Origin: Sulfurimonas xiamenensis
GTDB taxonomy: Bacteria > Campylobacterota > Campylobacteria > Campylobacterales > Sulfurimonadaceae
Assembly: GCF_009258045.1 (NCBI RefSeq)
Contig: NZ_CP041166.1
Location: 186,001 to 250,000 of the forward strand
Direction: 5' to 3'
DNA: 64,000 bases
Shown: positions 22,419 to 31,977 of the stretch, in pieces
Position numbering within the stretch: the stretch's first letter is position 1
Layout: every line of letters begins with the position of its first letter
The notes under the pieces: model-generated
Databases searched by the model: none
Told to the model about the DNA's origin: nothing
What the model saw: only the letters and a program-made list of their open reading frames with translations
Position numbers and translations under genes: made by a program

Positions 22419-23180
22419 TTATCTGTCGTAGAGATAAAATTTATTGTATCTGATGATTTCGCTTAAGTTTTCTGCATATTTTTCGCCTATTTCAGAGTAG
22501 CTGTCCAATTTTTCTATTAATATATATGGATCATCAGTCTGCATCTTTAGCTCTCTAAAATCTTTATATGCGTAAGAGCGGGCAAGTGTTTTGTAGTAAT
22601 CTCTTATCGAATCTTTAATATCGGAATATTTTTTAAGCCAAATTGTTCTGCTGCCTCTTTGCTGTACTGCTGCAATTCTTGGCTCGTTTTTGTTAAAAGA
22701 CCAGATGCCGTACAGATTATTTGCTTCTACAAAAAATCTTGATTTTGCCCAGGCGCTCTCCATGGCAGCTTGAGCGATAGAAATGCTTACAGGATGGGGT
22801 TTAAGTGCCATAAGCAGCTCTTCATCACTCTCTACTCCATAATACTCTTTTAGCTCTGAAATTTTTTCTTTGTATTCATCATTTTCTAAATTTTGAGCAA
22901 TCTCTTCATATTGCGTTTGAAGTTCATTATGTACCGAATTTATTGCAGGTATTATCAAGGTGTTAAATTGCTTCTTTTTCTGTTCTACGCTTGCTGCTTT
23001 GTTTGCGGATTTTTTCTTCTCTTTCTTGATTTTTTCAGCTTTTTCAATTTGTTTTATTTTTTCAATTTGTTTTATTTTTTCAACTTCTTCAATTTTAGAT
23101 TGTGAAAAAAAAGTGCTTAAAAAGAAAAGAAGCAGCATTACTAAAAAAATTAAAAGTGTGTTTTCATATAAAAATTTCAA
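22419..23180 (-). CDS. Bax-like glucosaminidase-domain protein, membrane-anchored
   Basis: A 253-residue protein with an N-terminal hydrophobic anchor (about 8-26), a Lys/Glu-rich coiled region containing a tandem hexapeptide (IEKIKQ, about 31-55), and a C-terminal glucosaminidase fold (about 120-250). The catalytic Glu is expected in AQAAMESAWAKSRF (Glu near 140), and the YGIWSF and YYKTLARSYAYKDFRE segments are typical of Bax. It would cut peptidoglycan glycan strands in the periplasm. It is the last gene of the envelope operon and overlaps the radical SAM gene by 4 bp. Confidence 0.78.
   Translation of the reverse strand: MKFLYENTLLIFLVMLLLFFLSTFFSQSKIEEVEKIKQIEKIKQIEKAEKIKKEKKKSANKAASVEQKKKQFNTLIIPAINSVHNELQTQYEEIAQNLENDEYKEKISELKEYYGVESDEELLMALKPHPVSISIAQAAMESAWAKSRFFVEANNLYGIWSFNKNEPRIAAVQQRGSRTIWLKKYSDIKDSIRDYYKTLARSYAYKDFRELKMQTDDPYILIEKLDSYSEIGEKYAENLSEIIRYNKFYLYDR
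23041..23084. repeat. 18-bp tandem repeat inside the Bax-like gene
   Basis: About 2.5 copies of an 18-bp unit (TTTTTCAATTTGTTTTAT on the plus strand) encode the IEKIKQ hexapeptide. Being a multiple of three, gain or loss of a unit would change linker length without a frameshift. Confidence 0.7.
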
Positions 23181-24427
23181 ATTAAAAACTCCATATTTAA
23201 TTTTTTAGCATAGGCTCCCAGCATGGCTCTTTCAAAATCATTGTTGGTTGCATATTGGTAACCAAATGTTTCCTTCCACATTTCATGCTCTTCCATGCAG
23301 AGATAGAAAAATACCTCTTTATGCCATGGCGCAAAACTGTTATAAGCATGTTTAAACATCTCTACTTTTATGTCATACGGGTAGGAGCTTTTGCCACTTG
23401 CATCCTCAAAAGGCATTTGGGTGATTTTGCTTCTAAACTCTCTATTTCTTAGCTGCTTAATCACAGGTTTTATAAATGTCAGCGTACCAAAACTAACAAG
23501 TGCGACTTCATAAGCCTGAAACTCTTTGAGTAATCGTTTATAGATCTCTTCGTATTCACTTAAATAGTTCTCATATTCAACAATCGGATGAAAATGAAAA
23601 CCTACTTTCACCCCTTTGTCTGCTACTTTTCTGGCAGCATTGATGCGTTTATCAAGCGAAGCCGTCAAATGCTCCTCGTTTTGTATAATAGTAGGCGTGT
23701 TAAGTGACCAGGTGCATAAAATATTTTTTGGCACTTCATTTTCCAGAAGATAGCTTATGTTGTCTGATTTTGTTTTAAACTCTAAAATTACATTTTTGTT
23801 TTCTCTTGCAAATTCAAACAAAGCATCTAAAATGCCCTCTCTGTTTCCCCACATAAGCGAATCAGAAGCCTGTCCTGTTCCAATGTGATATGTTCTGTTT
23901 TTTTCAAGATTTAAATTTTTTAGTTTTGCTGCAAAACTGCTGTCAAAAGTTATGGTGTTTTGATTGTAAAAAGATTGTATAGAGCAGTAGGAACAGTCAA
24001 ATCCGCAGCTCTCAACAGCGTCAAGAGTCAAAAGGTTGCAGCATCTTGTTTTTTCGCTGGCCACCGGACAGAGTCCTAGACCAAAACCCTCTTTTTTCTC
24101 AGTTTTAAAATGAAACTTCTGCTCTTTTGCACTGTTTTTAAGTTTAAAATTTTTATAAGAGTTAGGTTTTTCTCTTAATGCATTATATGCTTTTATAAGT
24201 CTTGAAAAAACAACTTTTTTTTGAGTGTGATCCGGAAAAAACTCTATAATACTTTTTTCATTCCACATCTCTAAGTCTCTAGCAATGTCAATAATCTGTT
24301 TAATTTCAGAAAATGAAAATTTTAGCTCAAGTGATTTTAGTTTTATAAAATCTTGCTCATTTGAGGTAAGTTTATAAAAAACTGTATTTTTTATAGCCTC
24401 ATTAAATTTATCTAAATATGAATTCAT
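23177..24427 (-). CDS. Radical SAM protein, spore photoproduct lyase-like
   Basis: The 416-residue protein has the Cys141-x3-Cys145-x2-Cys148 cluster (SCGFDCSYCS) used by spore photoproduct lyase relatives rather than the classical Cx3Cx2C with aromatic only at the fourth site. It also has GTGQASDSLMWGN (about 190) and FHFHPIVEYENY (about 290) segments typical of the group. The family includes DNA photoproduct repair enzymes. The host shows no sporulation genes here, so the substrate is uncertain. It overlaps the Bax-like gene and follows the histidine kinase by 33 bp. Confidence 0.72.
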   Translation of the reverse strand: MNSYLDKFNEAIKNTVFYKLTSNEQDFIKLKSLELKFSFSEIKQIIDIARDLEMWNEKSIIEFFPDHTQKKVVFSRLIKAYNALREKPNSYKNFKLKNSAKEQKFHFKTEKKEGFGLGLCPVASEKTRCCNLLTLDAVESCGFDCSYCSIQSFYNQNTITFDSSFAAKLKNLNLEKNRTYHIGTGQASDSLMWGNREGILDALFEFARENKNVILEFKTKSDNISYLLENEVPKNILCTWSLNTPTIIQNEEHLTASLDKRINAARKVADKGVKVGFHFHPIVEYENYLSEYEEIYKRLLKEFQAYEVALVSFGTLTFIKPVIKQLRNREFRSKITQMPFEDASGKSSYPYDIKVEMFKHAYNSFAPWHKEVFFYLCMEEHEMWKETFGYQYATNNDFERAMLGAYAKKLNMEFLI

Positions 24428-24460
24428 GATGGAATTTTAGCAAAAAAATGAAACATTTTG

Positions 24461-25843
24461 TTATTTTGTTATTTTTATTGATACATTTGTACCTATATTA
24501 ACTTTACTTTTAACTTCAATATTGTAATGGTGGATATCTAAAATCATTTTAACAATCGCAAGACCCAGGCCGCTTCCTCCCTCTTTTCGCGAACGAATTT
24601 TGTCGGCTTTGTAAAACTTCTCAAAAATATGCGGCAAATCTTTTTCTTCTATTCCATAACCGTTGTCTTTGATTTTTAAGATGTATTCATTATCATTTTC
24701 ATCCATGTAGATATCTATTTTAGAGTTTTTTGGACTGTAGATAACCGCGTTTTTAAGTATGTTGCTAATAGCAATTTTTAAGAGAGTTTCGTTTGCGTAG
24801 ATTGTTGCGGGGATAATTTTTTTAGCTTCAATAGCTATGTTTTTTGTCAGGGCAAATTTTTTTATCTGCAATATAGTATCCATGATTACTTCATCTAAAT
24901 ATAGTTCTTTAAAATCGTTTTTTAATTCGCTTGTATTCTTTTTAGCAAGAAATAGCAGCTGATTGATTATTTTTTCTATAGCAATGCTCTCTTCTAATAT
25001 ATCTTTTAAAATCTCTTTATACTCTTGAGGTTCTCTCTCATGTTTAAGAGCAACTTCAATTTCCCCGCGGATAACGGTTAGCGGGGTTTTGAGTTCATGG
25101 GAGGCGTTATTGCTAAAATCTGTTACTTTATTAAAAGAGTCTTCGAGATTGTTTAAAAGCTGGTTGAAAGTAGAAATAAGATCTTTAATTTCGCTTGGGA
25201 TATTATTTGTACTTACTCGTTTTGATAAATTTTGCGCTGATATAGATTTAACCGAAGTTATAACCTCTTTAACAGGAGAGAGTATTCTGCTTATTAGTAT
25301 GTTTGCAATAATTGAAAATATAATCAAAACAATAGGAGTTGCAATAATAAGACCGAGCAGAAGCTGTTTTAGATAGGGAGATTCAATATCCTTTTTCATG
25401 GCAAGCTGAATAAAAACTTTGGTATCTTCTTTTTCAAAAATAAGCATAGAGCTTGTGCGATAAGAGTTTTTATCAAAATAGTATATACTCCCCACATGTC
25501 CAATCTCATTTAGAGGTATATCAAAGAGCCAGCTGTGAATTTTTGAAGAGAGTGTTTCATGCTCTATTTTTTTGCTTTTTTTGTTGTAATAGATAATTTT
25601 TACAAAAAGAGGCTCTATAGAAAACTCTTCTATAAGTTCGTTTGCCATGTTAGAAGCATCATCATAACCCTCTTTTTTAAAATCGGGTATAACATCGATA
25701 GAGATCATCTTTAACTGGGTGTCCGTGGTATTTAAAACACCTTTTTTTGCCGTATTATAGATAAAAGCGCCGTAAACAAATAGAACAATTACATTTGTAA
25801 TAAAAAAATAAAAAAGCAGTTTTAATCTTAGACTTTTAGACAT
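24461..25843 (-). CDS. Sensor histidine kinase
   Basis: A 460-residue membrane kinase: one helix at about 9-30, a periplasmic sensor domain (about 31-160), a second helix at about 163-188, a HAMP linker, a HisKA domain with phospho-acceptor His249 (ASHELKTPLT), and a C-terminal HATPase with N-box (ISNILKNAVIYS), DNGYGIEEKDLPHIFEKFYK and a GGSGLGLAIVK G-box. It overlaps the response regulator gene by 8 bp. Its signal is unknown; the neighbouring genes suggest an envelope cue. Confidence 0.93.
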   Translation of the reverse strand: MSKSLRLKLLFYFFITNVIVLFVYGAFIYNTAKKGVLNTTDTQLKMISIDVIPDFKKEGYDDASNMANELIEEFSIEPLFVKIIYYNKKSKKIEHETLSSKIHSWLFDIPLNEIGHVGSIYYFDKNSYRTSSMLIFEKEDTKVFIQLAMKKDIESPYLKQLLLGLIIATPIVLIIFSIIANILISRILSPVKEVITSVKSISAQNLSKRVSTNNIPSEIKDLISTFNQLLNNLEDSFNKVTDFSNNASHELKTPLTVIRGEIEVALKHEREPQEYKEILKDILEESIAIEKIINQLLFLAKKNTSELKNDFKELYLDEVIMDTILQIKKFALTKNIAIEAKKIIPATIYANETLLKIAISNILKNAVIYSPKNSKIDIYMDENDNEYILKIKDNGYGIEEKDLPHIFEKFYKADKIRSRKEGGSGLGLAIVKMILDIHHYNIEVKSKVNIGTNVSIKITK

Positions 25844-26510
25844 CTTGATCGCTTAGCATGTAGCCTAAACCTCGTACGGTATGTATAAGTTTCAGGTCAA
25901 AATCTTTGTCTATTTTGTTTCTCAGCCTGTAGATGTAAACATTTATAATATTGCTCATACTCTCCTGTTCCATGTCGCTTAGATTCTCTTTTATAACTGT
26001 TTCACTTAAGAGCTTTTTGCTGTTTCTTGCCAAAAACTCCAATAATGCATACTCTTTTGCAGTCAATTTTATCTTTTTATCTGCCCGCTTGACCTCATGG
26101 TGTGTGGTGTCTATTGTTAAATCTGCAACCGTTATGATATTTGAAGTAGTTGAGGGGTTTCGTAGTTTTGCCCGGATACGAGCCAGGAGCTCTTCAAAGG
26201 CAAACGGTTTTGTCAGGTAATCATCCGCGCCGCTGTCAAGACCGTCTATCTTATCTTCTACTTTGTCTCTTGCCGTTAACATGATAACAGGGGTAGCTAT
26301 ATTTTTGCTTCTTATATTTTTGCATACATCAATGCCGTTTAAACCGTGAATCATTAAATCGAGCAAAATAACATCATAAGAGTTTGTCTCTATAAGATAA
26401 ACAGCTTCATATCCGTTGTCTGTAACATCGACGCTGTAAGACTCTTCTTGAAGCCCTTTTTTTATAAAAGAGGCTATTTTTTCATCATCTTCAACAACTA
26501 GAATGCGCAT
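25836..26510 (-). CDS. OmpR-family response regulator
   Basis: A 224-residue regulator with an N-terminal receiver (acidic pair near residues 8-9, phospho-acceptor Asp51 in LLDLMIHG, switch Thr in MLTARDKV, Lys in TKPFAFEE) and a C-terminal winged-helix DNA-binding domain (VIKENLSD, VYIYRLRNKID, VRGLGYML). AAAGGA precedes the ATG. OmpR-type proteins bind direct repeats spaced about one helical turn. Such repeats (TTCATC/TTCATA every 11 bp) lie at the head of this same operon, so autoregulation is likely. Confidence 0.94.
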   Translation of the reverse strand: MRILVVEDDEKIASFIKKGLQEESYSVDVTDNGYEAVYLIETNSYDVILLDLMIHGLNGIDVCKNIRSKNIATPVIMLTARDKVEDKIDGLDSGADDYLTKPFAFEELLARIRAKLRNPSTTSNIITVADLTIDTTHHEVKRADKKIKLTAKEYALLEFLARNSKKLLSETVIKENLSDMEQESMSNIINVYIYRLRNKIDKDFDLKLIHTVRGLGYMLSDQDV

Positions 26511-26519
26511 AACTATCCT

Positions 26520-26879
26520 TTACAAAAATTCAGCCAGTACTATCGCCCATGTAACAATAAATACAAAAATACTTAAAAAAACTATAGTGCTCCCCACATC
26601 CTTTGCACGGCCCGCCATATGATGATGCTCAAGCGTAACCAAATCAACTACTCTCTCAATCGCACTATTGACGGCTTCAGCTATAAGCATTCCGCTTAGT
26701 GATATAAACATTAAAGCCTTTTGTGTTAAGTTTATATCTATAAATATAATTATAGGCATTAGAATTATAGCTGCTATAACTTCTATTTTAAAAGATGTTT
26801 CGTTTTGAATCAAGTCTTTTAAACCTTTTAGAGCGTAATTTGTATTTTTAAAAAAGTTATATTTTGGCTGGTTTCTCAA
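26520..26879 (-). CDS. dgkA: Diacylglycerol kinase DgkA
   Basis: DgkA is a small inner-membrane kinase that phosphorylates diacylglycerol to phosphatidate. The 119-residue form starts at TTG 26879, with AAAGGA 7 nt upstream. A longer reading from the ATG at 26924 would overlap the upstream gene and add an atypical tail. The catalytic signature IAEAVNSAIERVVDLV (about 66-81) and GRAKDVGS (about 90-97) are present, with three membrane helices. It follows the transferase by 10 bp, so it can recycle the diacylglycerol that enzyme releases. Confidence 0.92.
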   Translation of the reverse strand: MRNQPKYNFFKNTNYALKGLKDLIQNETSFKIEVIAAIILMPIIIFIDINLTQKALMFISLSGMLIAEAVNSAIERVVDLVTLEHHHMAGRAKDVGSTIVFLSIFVFIVTWAIVLAEFL

Positions 26880-26889
26880 TTTTTTTCCT

Positions 26890-28809
26890 TTATCTATAGA
26901 GTTTTTTATTGTACATGTAATCAAGTGCTACTACAAAAGCCAAAGCATCTTTTTCCAGTTTTTCATCATGATCGCTCAAGGTTAGATGATTGCTTTTATC
27001 AAGATATGTTTTTGGGTCCTTGTATAAAAATGTGAGCGGTTTTTGCCCGGGTCTGACAATCACTACTTTATCATCTGCTCTTAGAGCGTATGATGAGTGA
27101 AACTGCATCAATGAGATATTTTGTTTTTTATCACTAAATATTGAGTGCCCCATTATAGGATATTTTAGATCAATACCTATTAAATCAAGTGCCGTTGCCA
27201 ATACATCAGGTTGAGAAGCAATTTTATCATAAATCATAGGTTGAATGCCACCGCCTAAAATAATACCGGGGATATGAAACATATTGACTGGTACCATATC
27301 GTCTCCGTAGACCCGCACATTATGATCTGCGATTACTACAAAAACCGTGTCTTTATAATAAGACTCTTTTTTTGCCAGTTCAAAAAAGCGACCTATCGCA
27401 TGGTCTGCATATTTAACGGCATTTTTTACACTGTTTTGTGGAACATCTTTTAAAAGTTCGATCTTCTCACACGGGAACTCAAAGGGAGAGTGGTTTGATT
27501 GTGAAAACATAATCGTTGCAAATTTTTGCCCTTTTGCATGTAGCTTTTTAAACTCTTCATTCGCTTTAACTACCAAATCCTCATCACAAACTCCCCAAGG
27601 AGCTACAAATGTGGGGTTTTCAAATTTGGGCTGATCTATTATCTCATCAAATCCGTTACCGCTGTACCATCCACGCATATTATCAAATCTGCTCTCTCCG
27701 CCGTAAATAAACGAAGTGTGATATCCAAACGGTTTAAGAGCCGAAGCTATAGTAAAAAAATCTTTTTGAGATTTGTTTCTTTTTACTACTCCCACACCAG
27801 GAACTGCCAAATTTCCGGCACTTACTGCGGCAAGTCCTCTCACGCTTCTTGTCCCATTCGAGTAGAGATCCTTAAATAGTATTGCCTCTTTGCTTAATCT
27901 GTTAAAGTTTGGCGTTATCCCATCTTCTCCTCCGGCGGCATGTACGAACTGATAACCGAAGCTCTCTTGTACGAATATAACTAGATTTTTAGGCTTATCA
28001 CTCTTAAAATGACTTTTTTCAATTCTTGAAAAAATGGATTTCTTGTCGTCTGACTCAATAGAGAGTCTTTTTTTAACTCGTGCCAAAGCTTCTTTTATAT
28101 CCATTTTTCCATACTGTTTTACCTCACCGCCTTCATGTACGGCATTGCTGTAGATGGCATAACCTATACTATGAAGCGAGTTTTTTGTTATCTCGTTTAC
28201 CATTCTGTTTGTCGAAAACATGGCATCGGATATATTAGCCCCTCTATGTCCAAATGATGAGCGAACACCCATAAAGAGCAGTGCCAAGATAGGTAAAAAC
28301 ATAGCGGCTCTTTTTATATAATGAGTCTCAAAAACATTTAAAAAATCATCTTTTGCATGTTTTTGATAAAAGTATATAAACACTCCTATCATCATAAAAG
28401 TTATAAGCAGTTCTGCTTTATAGTCTGCAAATATCATTGCAAAAACCTCTTTAGGGTATATCAAATACTCTACAAAAAGGTAATTGGGTCTTACATCGTA
28501 TTGCGCTACGAACGGAAACGTCGCATTTTCTATATAAATTACAAGCGAAAATATCACTAAAAGGTAATATTTTAAAAAACCGTTTGCAATATCTTTGAAT
28601 TTTACTGGGGTAAAAGAGAGAATTGTAAGAGGAATAACCAAGAGGATAGATGCCGTAATGGTATCCATTCTCAACCCGTAGATAAATGTCAGCCAGTAAT
28701 CAACACCACTGTTTTTAAAATTGTCGAAATAGAGGACAAATAAAAATAGTCTCCCTATAAAAAATATGGTTATCAAAAGTAAGTAGTACTTAAATAGTTT
28801 TTTTAACAT
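26890..28809 (-). CDS. LTA synthase/OpgB-like lipid head-group transferase 1
   Basis: A 639-residue protein with about five N-terminal membrane helices (1-190) and a periplasmic sulfatase/alkaline-phosphatase-fold domain (about 265-570). The nucleophile is expected to be Thr320 in NGTRSVRGL; metal ligands are in FVQESFGYQF and VIADHNVRV. Family members move phosphoglycerol or phosphoethanolamine from phospholipid to glycans or lipid A and leave diacylglycerol. Acceptor and donor are not known here. It is the first gene of a six-gene operon and is paralogous to the divergent gene at 28983. Confidence 0.85.
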   Translation of the reverse strand: MLKKLFKYYLLLITIFFIGRLFLFVLYFDNFKNSGVDYWLTFIYGLRMDTITASILLVIPLTILSFTPVKFKDIANGFLKYYLLVIFSLVIYIENATFPFVAQYDVRPNYLFVEYLIYPKEVFAMIFADYKAELLITFMMIGVFIYFYQKHAKDDFLNVFETHYIKRAAMFLPILALLFMGVRSSFGHRGANISDAMFSTNRMVNEITKNSLHSIGYAIYSNAVHEGGEVKQYGKMDIKEALARVKKRLSIESDDKKSIFSRIEKSHFKSDKPKNLVIFVQESFGYQFVHAAGGEDGITPNFNRLSKEAILFKDLYSNGTRSVRGLAAVSAGNLAVPGVGVVKRNKSQKDFFTIASALKPFGYHTSFIYGGESRFDNMRGWYSGNGFDEIIDQPKFENPTFVAPWGVCDEDLVVKANEEFKKLHAKGQKFATIMFSQSNHSPFEFPCEKIELLKDVPQNSVKNAVKYADHAIGRFFELAKKESYYKDTVFVVIADHNVRVYGDDMVPVNMFHIPGIILGGGIQPMIYDKIASQPDVLATALDLIGIDLKYPIMGHSIFSDKKQNISLMQFHSSYALRADDKVVIVRPGQKPLTFLYKDPKTYLDKSNHLTLSDHDEKLEKDALAFVVALDYMYNKKLYR

Positions 28810-28843
28810 GTATGTTCTGCCTTTGTCTGTTTTAACGTAAAAG

Positions 28844-28964
28844 AATATACTTTTTTGATTACATCAATATGAACATAGTATGAATTTTTGTTCATACTTC
28901 TTATGAAAAAAAATTCATCTTTTTTTCATCAACATTTCATCTCTTTTTTCTACTCTTTTACAAT
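28844..28964. promoter_or_regulatory. Divergent promoters with 11-bp TTCATC/TTCATA direct repeats
   Basis: Plus strand: TTCATC occurs at 28914, 28925 and 28936, exactly 11 bp apart. The last copy occupies the -35 position, 17 bp before TACAAT (28959-28964). Minus strand: TTCATA at 28884-28879 and 28873-28868, also 11 bp apart, lies about 18 bp before TATATT (28849-28844). A 7-bp inverted repeat (GTATGAA/TTCATAC) spans 28878-28897. This fits a PhoB/OmpR-type activator site controlling both operons. Confidence 0.65.
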
Positions 28965-28982
28965 TTATTTTAAGGATGTTTG

Positions 28983-30905
28983 ATGCAAAAATATATGCGA
29001 AGCAGATGTGCGATTATCGGTTTGTTTTTTTTATTGTTTTTGAGTGTTTCTGCTGTTACTAGAAGCGTTCTTTTGTTTAAATCTATAAATATGATAGATT
29101 TATCTTTTTTAGAGTTGTTGAAAATATATGGTGTTGGAGCATTTTATGATTTTATAAGTGTTGGCTATTTGGCATCACTTTTTGTTCTTTATCTGCTGTT
29201 TTTACCGCAGAAATTTCTTAATCATAAAATCCATCGCTATATCACATATATATTTGTTTATATTTTTCTGTTTGGTATAGTCTTTTTAGCATTTAGCGAA
29301 TGGTTTTTCTGGGATGAGTTTAATGTTAGATTTAATTTTATAGCAGTTGATTATTTAATCTATACAAAAGAGGTTATCGGCAATATTAACGAATCTTACC
29401 CAATGGGTATTTTAATTACTGTTATCTCTTTTATATCCGCACTACTTTTTTATGCGGTTTATAAATTGCAATATATTGAAAATTTTTTAAAAAGCCAAAG
29501 CCTCTTTAAAGAGCGTTTTAAATCATCGCTTATATATCTTTTGATTCCCGCTCTCTCTTTTGCATCTGTAACCGGCGATCTCTCAAAGATATCCAGCAAT
29601 CAATACGATAACGAACTCAGCAAATCTGGCCTGTACTCTTTGTTTGAGGCATTTAGAAACAATACACTCGATTATGATATGTTTTATGTAACGCAAAATA
29701 GTGAAAAAGTTCTTTCAACTTTAAAAAATTCTATAGATTCAAATCCTTCTGTTTTTACGGATACAGAGGATATAACCAGAAATATAATAAAATCCGGCGA
29801 AGAGAAAGATTACAATATTATGATGATAGTTGTTGAGAGCTTAAGCGGTAAGTTTATCGAGTCGCTTGGCGGAGAAAAAAATCTTACTCCAAATCTGGAC
29901 TCTTTGATAAAAGAGAGCCTCTTTTTTAATAATTTTTATGCAACCGGTACTAGAACTGTAAGGGGCATGGAGGCGATTACTCTCTCAGTGCCGCCTACGC
30001 CGGGGCGCTCAATTGTAAAAAGACCTGATAATCACAATATGTACTCAAGCGGATTTATCTTTAAAAACAAGGGGTATGAAACCAAGTTTATATATGGCGG
30101 ACACGGTTATTTTGACAATATGAATGAATTTTTTTCAAATAACGGGTTTGGCATTGTAGATAGAGTAGATTTTAGCGATGAAGAGGATACTTTTCACACG
30201 GTATGGGGAGTTTGTGATGAGGATCTGTTAAACAAGAGTTTAAAAGAGGCTGATCTCTCCTATAAAGCACACAAACCTTTTATGAGTTTTATCATGACAA
30301 CATCAAACCACAGACCTTATGATTATCCGAATGGGCGCATAGATATTCCTTCGCACACCGGAAGAGAGGGCGCTGTTAAATATACTGATTATGCGATAGG
30401 AGAGTTTATAAAAAAGGCCAAAGAGAAGCCGTGGTTTAAAAATACAATTTTTGTAATAGTAGCTGATCACTGCTCGACAAGTGCGGGTAAAATTGAGCTT
30501 CCTCTGGATAAATATCATATTCCTTTGATTGTCTATGCTCCGGAGATTATAAAACCTATGGTTGTCGATAAAGTTTCTAGTCAAATAGATATTATGCCGA
30601 CGCTCTTTGGTATGCTGAATTGGTCATATAAAAGTAAATTTTACGGCAATGATATATTGAGTCCATCTTTTCAGGAGAGAGCATTGATAGGAACATATCA
30701 AAAACTTGGACTTTACAAAAGCAATAAGCTGACTGTTTTATCTGCGGGCAAAAAGATAAAAAGTTACGAGGTACTTGAGCAAGATGTCTTTAGTACAAAA
30801 TATAAAGATATTCAGACAGATACGGAATCTAAAAATAATATTGTAAGTTATTATCAAGGGGCAAGTTCTCTTCATAAAAAGGGGCTGGATAGATATGACG
30901 ACTAA
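28983..30905 (+). CDS. LTA synthase/OpgB-like lipid head-group transferase 2
   Basis: A 640-residue paralogue of the divergent gene, with the same build: about five membrane helices, then a sulfatase-fold domain. The nucleophile is expected at Thr323 (GTRTVRGME); VVESLSGKF and FVIVADHCS carry metal ligands. The ATG at 28983 is preferred over a TTG at 28980 because AAGGA is 6 nt upstream. It overlaps the PAP2 gene by 11 bp. The substrate is unknown; having two diverged copies suggests two acceptors or donors. Confidence 0.85.
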   Translation: MQKYMRSRCAIIGLFFLLFLSVSAVTRSVLLFKSINMIDLSFLELLKIYGVGAFYDFISVGYLASLFVLYLLFLPQKFLNHKIHRYITYIFVYIFLFGIVFLAFSEWFFWDEFNVRFNFIAVDYLIYTKEVIGNINESYPMGILITVISFISALLFYAVYKLQYIENFLKSQSLFKERFKSSLIYLLIPALSFASVTGDLSKISSNQYDNELSKSGLYSLFEAFRNNTLDYDMFYVTQNSEKVLSTLKNSIDSNPSVFTDTEDITRNIIKSGEEKDYNIMMIVVESLSGKFIESLGGEKNLTPNLDSLIKESLFFNNFYATGTRTVRGMEAITLSVPPTPGRSIVKRPDNHNMYSSGFIFKNKGYETKFIYGGHGYFDNMNEFFSNNGFGIVDRVDFSDEEDTFHTVWGVCDEDLLNKSLKEADLSYKAHKPFMSFIMTTSNHRPYDYPNGRIDIPSHTGREGAVKYTDYAIGEFIKKAKEKPWFKNTIFVIVADHCSTSAGKIELPLDKYHIPLIVYAPEIIKPMVVDKVSSQIDIMPTLFGMLNWSYKSKFYGNDILSPSFQERALIGTYQKLGLYKSNKLTVLSAGKKIKSYEVLEQDVFSTKYKDIQTDTESKNNIVSYYQGASSLHKKGLDRYDD

Positions 30906-31560
30906 AAGAGAGATAATAGTCGCATTAGCATCTCTTGCAGCTATTTTCTTTCTTTTTGAGTTTACAAATATCGATATATTTGTGCAAAATTACTTTTATG
31001 ATGAGGTTACACAAAAATGGCTTTTGTTGCATCAGAAAGGAACTCTGCTAGATATGCTTTTTTATACCGGCATTAAAAAAGCAATTATAATTTTTGGAGT
31101 TTTTATTCTATCTTTGTATTTATACTCTTTTAAAGATTCTGCACAGAGATTAAAAGAGTATAGAAGTGGATTGCTGATAGTTTGGCTGAGCATAGCTATG
31201 GTTCCGCTTATTGTCGGTGCTATAAAAGCTGTTTCAAATGTACCTTGCCCATACGATTGTAAATATTTTGGGGGAGAGTATCCATATATAAGAGTTTTTG
31301 ATAGTATGCCCCAGGAGATAGTAAAAAAATTCAAATGCTATCCAGCCGGCCATGCAAGCGGCGGTTTTGCACTAATGTCGCTATTTTTTCTATTTAAGGA
31401 GCGAAAAAACAGATTTATTGCTCTAGGAGTTGCAGTGCTGATTGGCTGGAGCATGGGGTTGTATAAGATGCTGATAGGGCATCATTACTTAGGCCATACT
31501 GTGATAACTATGATTCTGGCATGGTTTTTAATCCTGGTAATTTATAAAATCGTAAAATAA
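30895..31560 (+). CDS. PAP2-family membrane phosphatase
   Basis: A 221-residue integral membrane phosphatase. The phosphatase motifs are CYPAGHASGGF (the PSGH-type motif, about 147-157) and GLYKMLIGHHYLGHT (the C-terminal SRx5H-type motif, about 187-201). There are about six helices. Relatives dephosphorylate undecaprenyl diphosphate, phosphatidate, phosphatidylglycerol phosphate or lipid A. The 11-bp overlap with the transferase implies a joint function in envelope lipids. Confidence 0.85.
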   Translation: MTTKREIIVALASLAAIFFLFEFTNIDIFVQNYFYDEVTQKWLLLHQKGTLLDMLFYTGIKKAIIIFGVFILSLYLYSFKDSAQRLKEYRSGLLIVWLSIAMVPLIVGAIKAVSNVPCPYDCKYFGGEYPYIRVFDSMPQEIVKKFKCYPAGHASGGFALMSLFFLFKERKNRFIALGVAVLIGWSMGLYKMLIGHHYLGHTVITMILAWFLILVIYKIVK

Positions 31561-31632
31561 ATATTGCATTTTGAAATATTATTTGGCAACAAACATTTTT
31601 TTCATTACCATAGTATTTAAAAAAGGCATAAT

Positions 31633-31977
31633 ATGATTTTAGGAAAATGCCCATACTGCAGTGACGGACACATTGAAGTAAGAGACAAAGAGATAAGCGG
31701 TAAAAAAGTTAAACTTTATGCTTGTTCAAATGCGCACTGGAAAACAGAGGATGGAGAGATGTTTGAACTAAGAGAGGATGCTACATGTGATTTTAAAATT
31801 TGGCAGAATAGCCTTGCTAGATATGGGAAGTGGCTTACATATAAAGAAGTGAGGGAACTTTTAGAAAATGAAACGATAGAGGTAGAGCTGCTTAGTAAAA
31901 AATATGGCAAAAAGATCTACTATAATAAATATATAGTTTTAAATCCTGAGTATGGAGTGAGTGTTTTATGGGATTAG
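31633..31977 (+). CDS. Zinc-ribbon protein of unknown function
   Basis: A 114-residue protein not recognised by family. The N-terminus has a CxxC knuckle (GKCPYCSDG, Cys6 and Cys9) and a later Cys31 in LYACSNAHW, with another Cys near 52. This resembles a topoisomerase C-terminal-type zinc ribbon. The remainder contains a KWLTYKEVRELLENE helix. It stands alone, 72 bp after the PAP2 gene and before the structured segment upstream of rpmJ. Confidence 0.6.
   Translation: MILGKCPYCSDGHIEVRDKEISGKKVKLYACSNAHWKTEDGEMFELREDATCDFKIWQNSLARYGKWLTYKEVRELLENETIEVELLSKKYGKKIYYNKYIVLNPEYGVSVLWD

Follow-up and report, generated by a model that had tools for sequence, protein, structure and literature searches.

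Gene content and limits of the island

We analysed a window of 64 kb on the single contig of the Sulfurimonas xiamenensis genome (1,916,242 bases; window, G000:C1:186001-250000, within which positions are counted unless a contig is named) and describe a compact set of envelope genes in which two transferases of the LtaS/OpgB class are combined with the diacylglycerol kinase DgkA, a PAP2 phosphatase and a two-component system. An earlier note, made from the sequence alone, had listed eight open reading frames (ORFs) here, and the ORF table agreed with it for all eight in coordinates and strands; Pfam matched them as Sulfatase (two ORFs), DAGK_prokar, Response_reg with Trans_reg_C, HisKA with HATPase_c, SPL, Glucosaminidase and PAP2. 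On the minus strand, transferase 1 of that note (here tr1; 26890-28809) is followed by dgkA (26520-26879), the genes of an OmpR-type response regulator (RR; 25836-26510) and of a sensor histidine kinase (HK; 24461-25843) with HAMP, HisKA and HATPase domains, an SPL-like radical SAM gene (23177-24427) and a Bax-like gene with a glucosaminidase domain (22419-23180). Transferase 2 (tr2; 28983-30905) and the PAP2 gene (30895-31560) diverge from them on the plus strand, and the gene after PAP2 is called h114 below. The compactness that had been claimed for the minus-strand run was confirmed, with gaps of 10 bp (tr1-dgkA), 9 bp (dgkA-RR) and 33 bp (HK-SPL) and overlaps of 8 bp (RR-HK) and 4 bp (SPL-Bax); the first gap assumes that dgkA begins at its probable start, the TTG at 26879 behind AGGA (the longest ORF starts at 26924). 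The claimed overlap of tr2, most likely starting with the ATG at 28983, and PAP2 amounts to 11 bp. The adjacent OmpR-type RR and HAMP-containing HK are arranged as in PmrAB/EptA loci. A scan for promoters and terminators returned 63 promoter-like sites where 42 were expected from shuffled sequences, and 4 terminator-like sites where 6.8 were expected.

The limits of the set were obtained from relatives. In a search of 135 genomes of the genus (many incomplete; the counts take no account of kinship), with kinase orthologues defined by an identity of 55% or more, the SPL-like gene was present in 102 genomes, 96 of them without a kinase orthologue. Twenty SPL loci were chosen and opened: SPL was present in all of them and h114 at the same locus in 19, and 18 of these 19 were devoid of any tr gene, the exception (L142) having tr2 and eptA in between. 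SPL and h114 are separated by about 100-140 bp at four empty sites (L125, L130, L139 and L140) and by 0.5 to about 6 kb, with differing contents, in the other 14 loci, so the spot takes varied inserts and the SPL-h114 gap (window 24428-31632; equivalents L125-L144) is possibly a hot spot for inserted genes. When the short junctions of the empty-site relatives were aligned with the window, similarity broke off at about 24445, the left boundary, and resumed at about 31556-31559, the right one. The island (about 24446-31558) thus consists of kinase, regulator, DgkA and tr1 divergent from tr2 and PAP2, and this stretch of about 7.1 kb is horizontally acquired. Composition does not mark it, as the G+C content in 2-kb windows overlaps (31-37% over 24-31 kb, 33-38% over 32-38 kb).

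The SPL-like and Bax-like genes, which the earlier note had included in the module, belong to the old, pre-island neighbourhood, because SPL mostly occurs without the kinase and adjoins h114 at empty sites; Bax adjoins SPL without the island in six of the 20 SPL loci (L125, L130, L132, L133, L134 and L139). In genome G013, SPL still lies beside h114 at an empty site (L140), and the related gene set of this genome (L094), like that of L095, is located in a stretch without SPL or h114. Since SPL and Bax follow the kinase by 33 bp, they may be read through from the tr1 arm.

Enzymes and the shared promoter

The two transferases had been called paralogous, and they are (31% identity over 567 aa, E about 1e-77). 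Local duplication was rejected as their origin because each is closer to proteins of other taxa, tr1 to an Aeromonas protein (41%) and tr2 to Pedobacter proteins (45-49%) and to a protein of a Cyclobacteriaceae record (51%); they look like two old subfamilies. The nearest named relatives of tr2 are mostly Sulfurimonas records, some labelled Sulfurovum. Membership of the EptA class was likewise rejected for both, since the Sulfatase domain (PF00884) was matched but EptA_B_N was not. VP1736 of Vibrio parahaemolyticus (3lxq) was the best match in a search of the PDB for tr1 (E=1e-101) and tr2 (E=6e-77), followed by LtaP/LtaS. The AlphaFold model of tr2 (pLDDT 85.5) comprises N-terminal helices (10-161) and an alkaline-phosphatase-type C-domain; with this model, Foldseek found 3lxq, LtaP, PbgA/YejM and LtaS closest, the first MCR-1 chain ranking 49 in the best 50. 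Escherichia coli OpgB is 24-27% identical to the island transferases (E about 1e-14). VP1736, LtaP/LtaS and OpgB are their relatives in sequence and fold. E285, T325, H443, D495 and H496 of tr2, which we take to be metal, nucleophile and general-acid residues, align with EptA/OpgB, the T325 position being Ser in tr1 and in a third transferase, tr3. The FWNR segment of LtaS, whose Trp and Arg bind glycerol phosphate, reads FDNM in tr1, tr2 and VP1736; the contact residues of LtaS proper are thus missing and the head group may be other than phosphoglycerol. tr3, the third LtaS/OpgB-class transferase of the genome, is located outside the window (G000:C1:481487-485353; L002, wider L121), preceded by a dgkA paralogue of its own (43% identical to the window dgkA, frames overlapping by about 30 bp) inside an LPS-type (lipopolysaccharide) cluster of heptosyltransferase- and glycosyltransferase-like genes, named from reading the sequences.

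DgkA matched Pfam DAGK_prokar and, when aligned with its E. coli counterpart, keeps the conserved blocks NETSF, EAVNSAIERVVD and AKDVGS. The best-scoring family of the PAP2 protein (PF01569) is the lipid A phosphatase NF028538, at 158 bits and thus below the cut-off of 275. The earlier note had envisaged a diacylglycerol cycle, in which transferases of a diacylglycerol-releasing type and DgkA still have their place. Because the best match of PAP2 is a lipid A phosphatase, this enzyme is less likely to close a phosphatidate cycle than to act on lipid A or polyprenyl phosphates. The kinase resembles CzcS/CopS by NCBIfam (below cut-off), and its structural model (mean pLDDT 69, pTM 0.40) was too weak for naming a sensor fold.

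The divergent promoter contains a tandem box TTCAT-N6-TTCAT facing tr1 (28869-28884, minus strand) and a triple box TTCAT-N6-TTCAT-N6-TTCAT facing tr2 (28914-28940, plus strand). All three TTCAT-N6-TTCAT matches of the window fall here (0.5 expected), and the 1.9-Mb genome contains no second triple box even when one mismatch is allowed. An exact box was found upstream of tr1, tr2 or dgkA in 10 of 12 kinase loci, at -58 to -95 and once at -244; boxes facing tr1 are present at -69 to -95 also in L004, L005, L007, L086, L094 and L095 and at -244 in L087, and no exact box precedes tr1 in L009 and L088. Among 26 loci with a readable upstream stretch and no detected kinase, the box occurred in five (L004, L006, L007, L014 and L103) and in none of the other 21 (L111 and L112, with unusable upstream stretches, were left out of this survey). 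L004 belongs to G022, whose kinase sits on another contig beside a tr1 fragment. In L007, a remnant of the start of a response-regulator gene lies ahead of tr2 (L007:4180-4355), and no kinase orthologue was found in its genome, G058. A genus-wide scan for the triple box returned 18 sites, distributed over 15 of the 135 genomes (reversed control, 2 sites); eight of the 18 are directly upstream of tr1 or tr2 in kinase genomes, four are in G003 and six elsewhere (G001, G008, G019, G031, G037 and G124). A site is present in nine of the 11 kinase genomes (that of G008 lying elsewhere) against six of the 124 others (Fisher p=8e-9, kinship uncorrected). Joint control of both arms is therefore well supported by the sequences, because tandem boxes precede both transferases and the triple box, unique in the genome, goes with the kinase throughout the genus. 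This strengthens the view, already put forward in the earlier note, of a compact envelope module that has its own two-component system and is probably under common control. The boxes are predicted binding sites of the island's response regulator.

Related gene sets in the genus, in distant taxa and on plasmids

Kinase orthologues occur in 11 of the 135 genus genomes and in all 11 adjoin tr1 and/or tr2, and tr2 orthologues above 50% identity occur in 18. Conservation of gene order had been proposed as a check, and the full order bax-spl-hk-rr-dgkA-tr1 divergent from tr2-pap2 recurs in G005 (L086). Adding L010 and L011 to the 11 genus genomes makes 13 kinase loci (that of G022 combined from L004 and L151), with tr2 in 11, tr1 in nine, PAP2 in 12 and dgkA in eight. 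Scattering of the genes among relatives, which the earlier note had named as evidence against a module, applies to SPL and Bax and in part to tr1, which stands without the kinase in many relatives. In L016, L017, L018 and L020, where the rest of the island is missing, a more distant tr2 relative (50-52%) has the gene for a conserved 'LTTLNSRYTHTA' protein directly behind it.

EptA_B_N (PF08019) was found in 43 of the 135 genomes, and no match, i.e. no EptA-class transferase, was found in the S. xiamenensis genome. EptA is present in two of the 11 kinase genomes (G013 and G130), both without tr2, and the other nine have tr2 and no EptA. Canonical EptA shares cassettes with the island genes in several relatives, in the orders tr1-dgkA-RR-HK-eptA-pap2 (L094, L095), tr1-eptA-pap2-dgkA (L096), tr1-eptA-pap2 (L102), tr1-eptA-dgkA (L103), tr2-eptA-dgkA (L089) and tr1-dgkA-eptA-tr2 (L007), and with tr2 beside eptA in L006 and L142; the EptA protein of L007 scores 667 bits as phosphoethanolamine-lipid A transferase, over the cut-off of 500. 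The case for EptA rests on these shared cassettes, since its genus-wide association with the tr1/tr2 class is not significant (16/36 versus 27/99, Fisher p=0.06, kinship ignored).

G003 contains relatives of the island pair (RR 66%, HK 41%) together with back-to-back triple boxes (L149, L150). Divergent from this pair are genes for an ArnC-like glycosyltransferase, a LAB_N protein, an ArnT-like protein (sole NCBIfam match, lipid IV(A) aminoarabinosyltransferase) and an LptF/LptG permease. Boxes also lie, as a second pair, ahead of a PAP2 gene for which LpxE is the better of two weak NCBIfam matches. This is apparently a lipid A glycosylation regulon, and no other observation points more strongly to a role of the regulator in lipid A modification.

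Outside the genus, 63 loci with tr2 relatives were examined (L021-L083), mostly from Bacteroidota and Pseudomonadota; one of Desulfobacula (L058) has the order tr2-dgkA-RR-HK, and two of Burkholderiales (L053, L083) have RR-HK-tr2-PAP2 at 22-36% identity. A protein search of plasmids returned 25 records for tr1 and 26 for tr2, of which 12 were opened at 13 places, with incomplete gene tables. A Methylophaga pinxianii plasmid contains eptA-HK-RR-PAP2-DgkA divergent from an LTA synthase gene. In Pseudomonas aeruginosa CP137941 (L163/L164), LTA synthase-DgkA-InaA-methyltransferase-HK-RR diverge from LTA synthase-PAP2, the PAP2-linked LTA synthase being 44% identical to tr2 and the module lying beside a Tn3-family transposase; a P. 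veronii plasmid (L165) carries a set of the same type, split by transposase and reverse-transcriptase genes. DgkA and EptA are located near LTA synthase on Pseudoalteromonas and Glaciecola plasmids, DgkA adjoins LTA synthase on a Photobacterium plasmid, and on a Marinobacter plasmid LTA synthase adjoins HK-RR-GT39-GT2. On a Cetobacterium plasmid a kinase gene is 4 kb away from the tr-like gene.

Proposed lipid A decoration and competing explanations

The earlier note saw in the combination of genes a candidate for an undescribed system, which is not supported: eptA or mcr genes with dgkA, pap2 or a two-component pair are already described (PMC10285318, PMC7559476, PMC10433830). According to the last of these papers, CarR of V. 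vulnificus activates dgkA-eptA-mdoB, and when dgkA and mdoB are removed in addition to eptA, resistance to polymyxin B falls as low as in carR (PMC10433830). The island resembles CarRS, as described there, in placing a two-component system over DgkA and head-group transferases that include one of the MdoB/OpgB class (an MdoB homologue being named in that paper), and the half-sites are six bases apart in both, GACAN6TACA bound by CarR and TTCATN6TTCAT here, although their sequences differ (PMC10433830). EptA belongs to the Vibrio operon but is absent here, whereas the PAP2 link, two OpgB-class transferases and divergent arms distinguish the island in this comparison, which was made by description. 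In the E. coli eptA-basR-basS stretch (PmrAB), the RR and HK genes also form one run with the gene of a head-group transferase, but this transferase is of the EptA class and the stretch contains no DgkA or PAP2. Two papers report pap2 and dgkA as neighbours of mcr genes, and two-component systems as neighbours of eptA (PMC7559476, PMC10285318), with regulators rarely linked to mcr genes (PMC10285318); the mcr-1-pap2 and mcr-3/mcr-7-dgkA cassettes are likewise mobile and combine a transferase with a PAP2 lipid A phosphatase and/or DgkA, but their transferase is of the EptA class (PMC7559476, PMC10285318). According to two other papers, dgkA is under ColRS (PMC2689224) and Tn4652 carries DgkA and a sulfatase (PMC4989453). 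The set of CP137941 is similar in having LTA synthase, DgkA, HK and RR divergent from LTA synthase-PAP2; it differs in its extra InaA kinase, methyltransferase and dual-specificity phosphatase, in the order within the arm and in identities of 21-44%, and no TTCAT box was present in the short intergenic stretch examined. New here, as judged from sequence, is an EptA-less build with two VP1736-like transferases, a mapped island and a footprinted box.

The best explanation, with a probability of roughly 0.63, is a self-regulated acquired island for the decoration of lipid A or LPS, of the PmrAB/CarRS-EptA-DgkA-PAP2 kind, with LtaS/OpgB-class head-group transferases. This is suggested because the boxes of G003 precede ArnC-, ArnT- and LpxE-like genes and canonical EptA sits in the cassettes of relatives. 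The kinase would sense envelope stress (cationic peptides, metal or pH being candidates) and phosphorylate the response regulator, which would bind the 11-bp-spaced TTCAT repeats in the divergent promoter and turn on both arms. PAP2 might then take phosphate off lipid A (or polyprenyl phosphate), tr1 and tr2, facing the periplasm, might transfer the phospho-head group of phosphatidylethanolamine (PE) or phosphatidylglycerol (PG) to LPS, freeing diacylglycerol, and DgkA would convert the latter back into phosphatidate. The DNA binding of the regulator, the acceptor, the head group, the signal and the phenotype of the island are what we infer in this scheme.

Several observations weigh against this explanation. 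Our confidence in it is slightly lowered because dgkA is absent from five of the 13 kinase loci (L005, L010, L015, L087 and L151) and most of the 63 distant tr2 loci stand without DgkA or PAP2 partners; dgkA was matched there in L058 alone, and PAP2 in no loci but L053 and L083. L087 also has no pap2, and 25 of the 36 genomes with a gene of the tr1/tr2 class have no kinase orthologue. The kinase loci L008 and L088 show no exact box upstream of tr1, tr2 or dgkA, and L006, L014 and L103 carry the box without a detected kinase. Among the opened plasmid stretches, those of Pasteurella, Mesorhizobium and Cetobacterium contained no DgkA, PAP2 or adjacent two-component pair, and an Aeromonas record, unannotated there, matched only tr1. 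The NCBIfam matches of PAP2, HK and RR are all below curated cut-offs, as are those of the ArnC-, ArnT- and LpxE-like proteins of G003; the kinase and regulator profiles are closer to CzcRS/CopRS than to PmrAB; and elsewhere, enzymes of the LtaS class modify glucans or synthesise teichoic acid.

The island could instead be primarily a heavy-metal response, in which a pair resembling CzcRS/CopRS detects metal and has the envelope altered against it, an explanation compatible with a lipid A target. TIGR01386/TIGR01387 are the top HK/RR profiles (below cut-off), DgkA-LTA synthase adjoin CzcA/CDF metal efflux genes at a second place of the Methylophaga pinxianii plasmid, DgkA lies beside an LTA-synthase-like stretch with Ni/Co efflux near it on P. 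aeruginosa pHS17-127, and arsenic-type genes occur 2 kb away in the window; however, the island itself contains no metal efflux gene and ars genes are also found near SPL in relatives without the island, and we consider this explanation rather doubtful. The transferases might also leave lipid A untouched and, in the manner of OpgB, add phosphoglycerol or phosphoethanolamine to a different glycan of the periplasm or the surface (LPS core or O-chain, exopolysaccharide or periplasmic glucan). The similarity to OpgB, a best NCBIfam match of tr1 and tr2 to phosphoglycerol transferase I (far below cut-off) and the position of tr3 with its own dgkA among glycosyltransferase-like genes would fit such a role, but lipid A is indicated by the partners PAP2 and EptA and, in G003, by the ArnT-like regulon, and the substitution of periplasmic glucan by an OpgB system was rejected for this genome, in which no MdoG/OpgG (periplasmic glucan synthesis) was found; another glycan as target therefore appears unlikely. 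The version of the earlier note, a single undescribed envelope-lipid cycle to which the SPL-like and Bax-like genes also belong, seems highly improbable: the genes are tightly spaced on one strand, in the same order in L086 and, minus dgkA, in L005, and bax-spl-tr1 occurs without the kinase in L093 and L100, but against this stand the frequency of SPL without kinase, its place beside h114 at empty sites, and eight kinase loci (L008, L009, L010, L011, L015, L088, L094 and L095) that lack SPL and Bax in the fetched stretch.

If lipid A or LPS decoration is the function, the VP1736-like proteins might constitute a second, unrecognised class of LtaS/OpgB-type lipid A/LPS head-group transferases that can replace EptA, and the full kit of such transferases, DgkA, PAP2 and their own two-component system would move between phyla, also on plasmids and beside a Tn3-family transposase. 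We put this forward tentatively: nine of the 11 kinase genomes have tr2 without EptA and the other two EptA without tr2. Searches of a literature in which most subscription journals were outside coverage found no paper on VP1736 by name and, among the matches listed, none on an LtaS-class lipid A transferase by title. Proteins of the 'LTA synthase family' occur widely in Gram-negative bacteria, mostly with no function assigned. At this locus two of them are linked with a regulator of their own, a DNA box and enzymes of a lipid A-type set, which opens their substrate to testing in an environmental genus. The locus likewise suggests what the DgkA-sulfatase pair of Tn4652 might do, and the plasmid modules of Pseudomonas and Methylophaga that resemble the island.

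As regards the old neighbours of the island, the SPL-like radical SAM protein is usually present in one copy per genus genome, and the genus is not known to sporulate, though the gene is common. The h114 protein had no Pfam or NCBIfam match at E 0.001; its gene (31633-31977), upstream of rpsM, encodes a conserved, cysteine-containing protein of 114 aa that is 74-90% identical in relatives.

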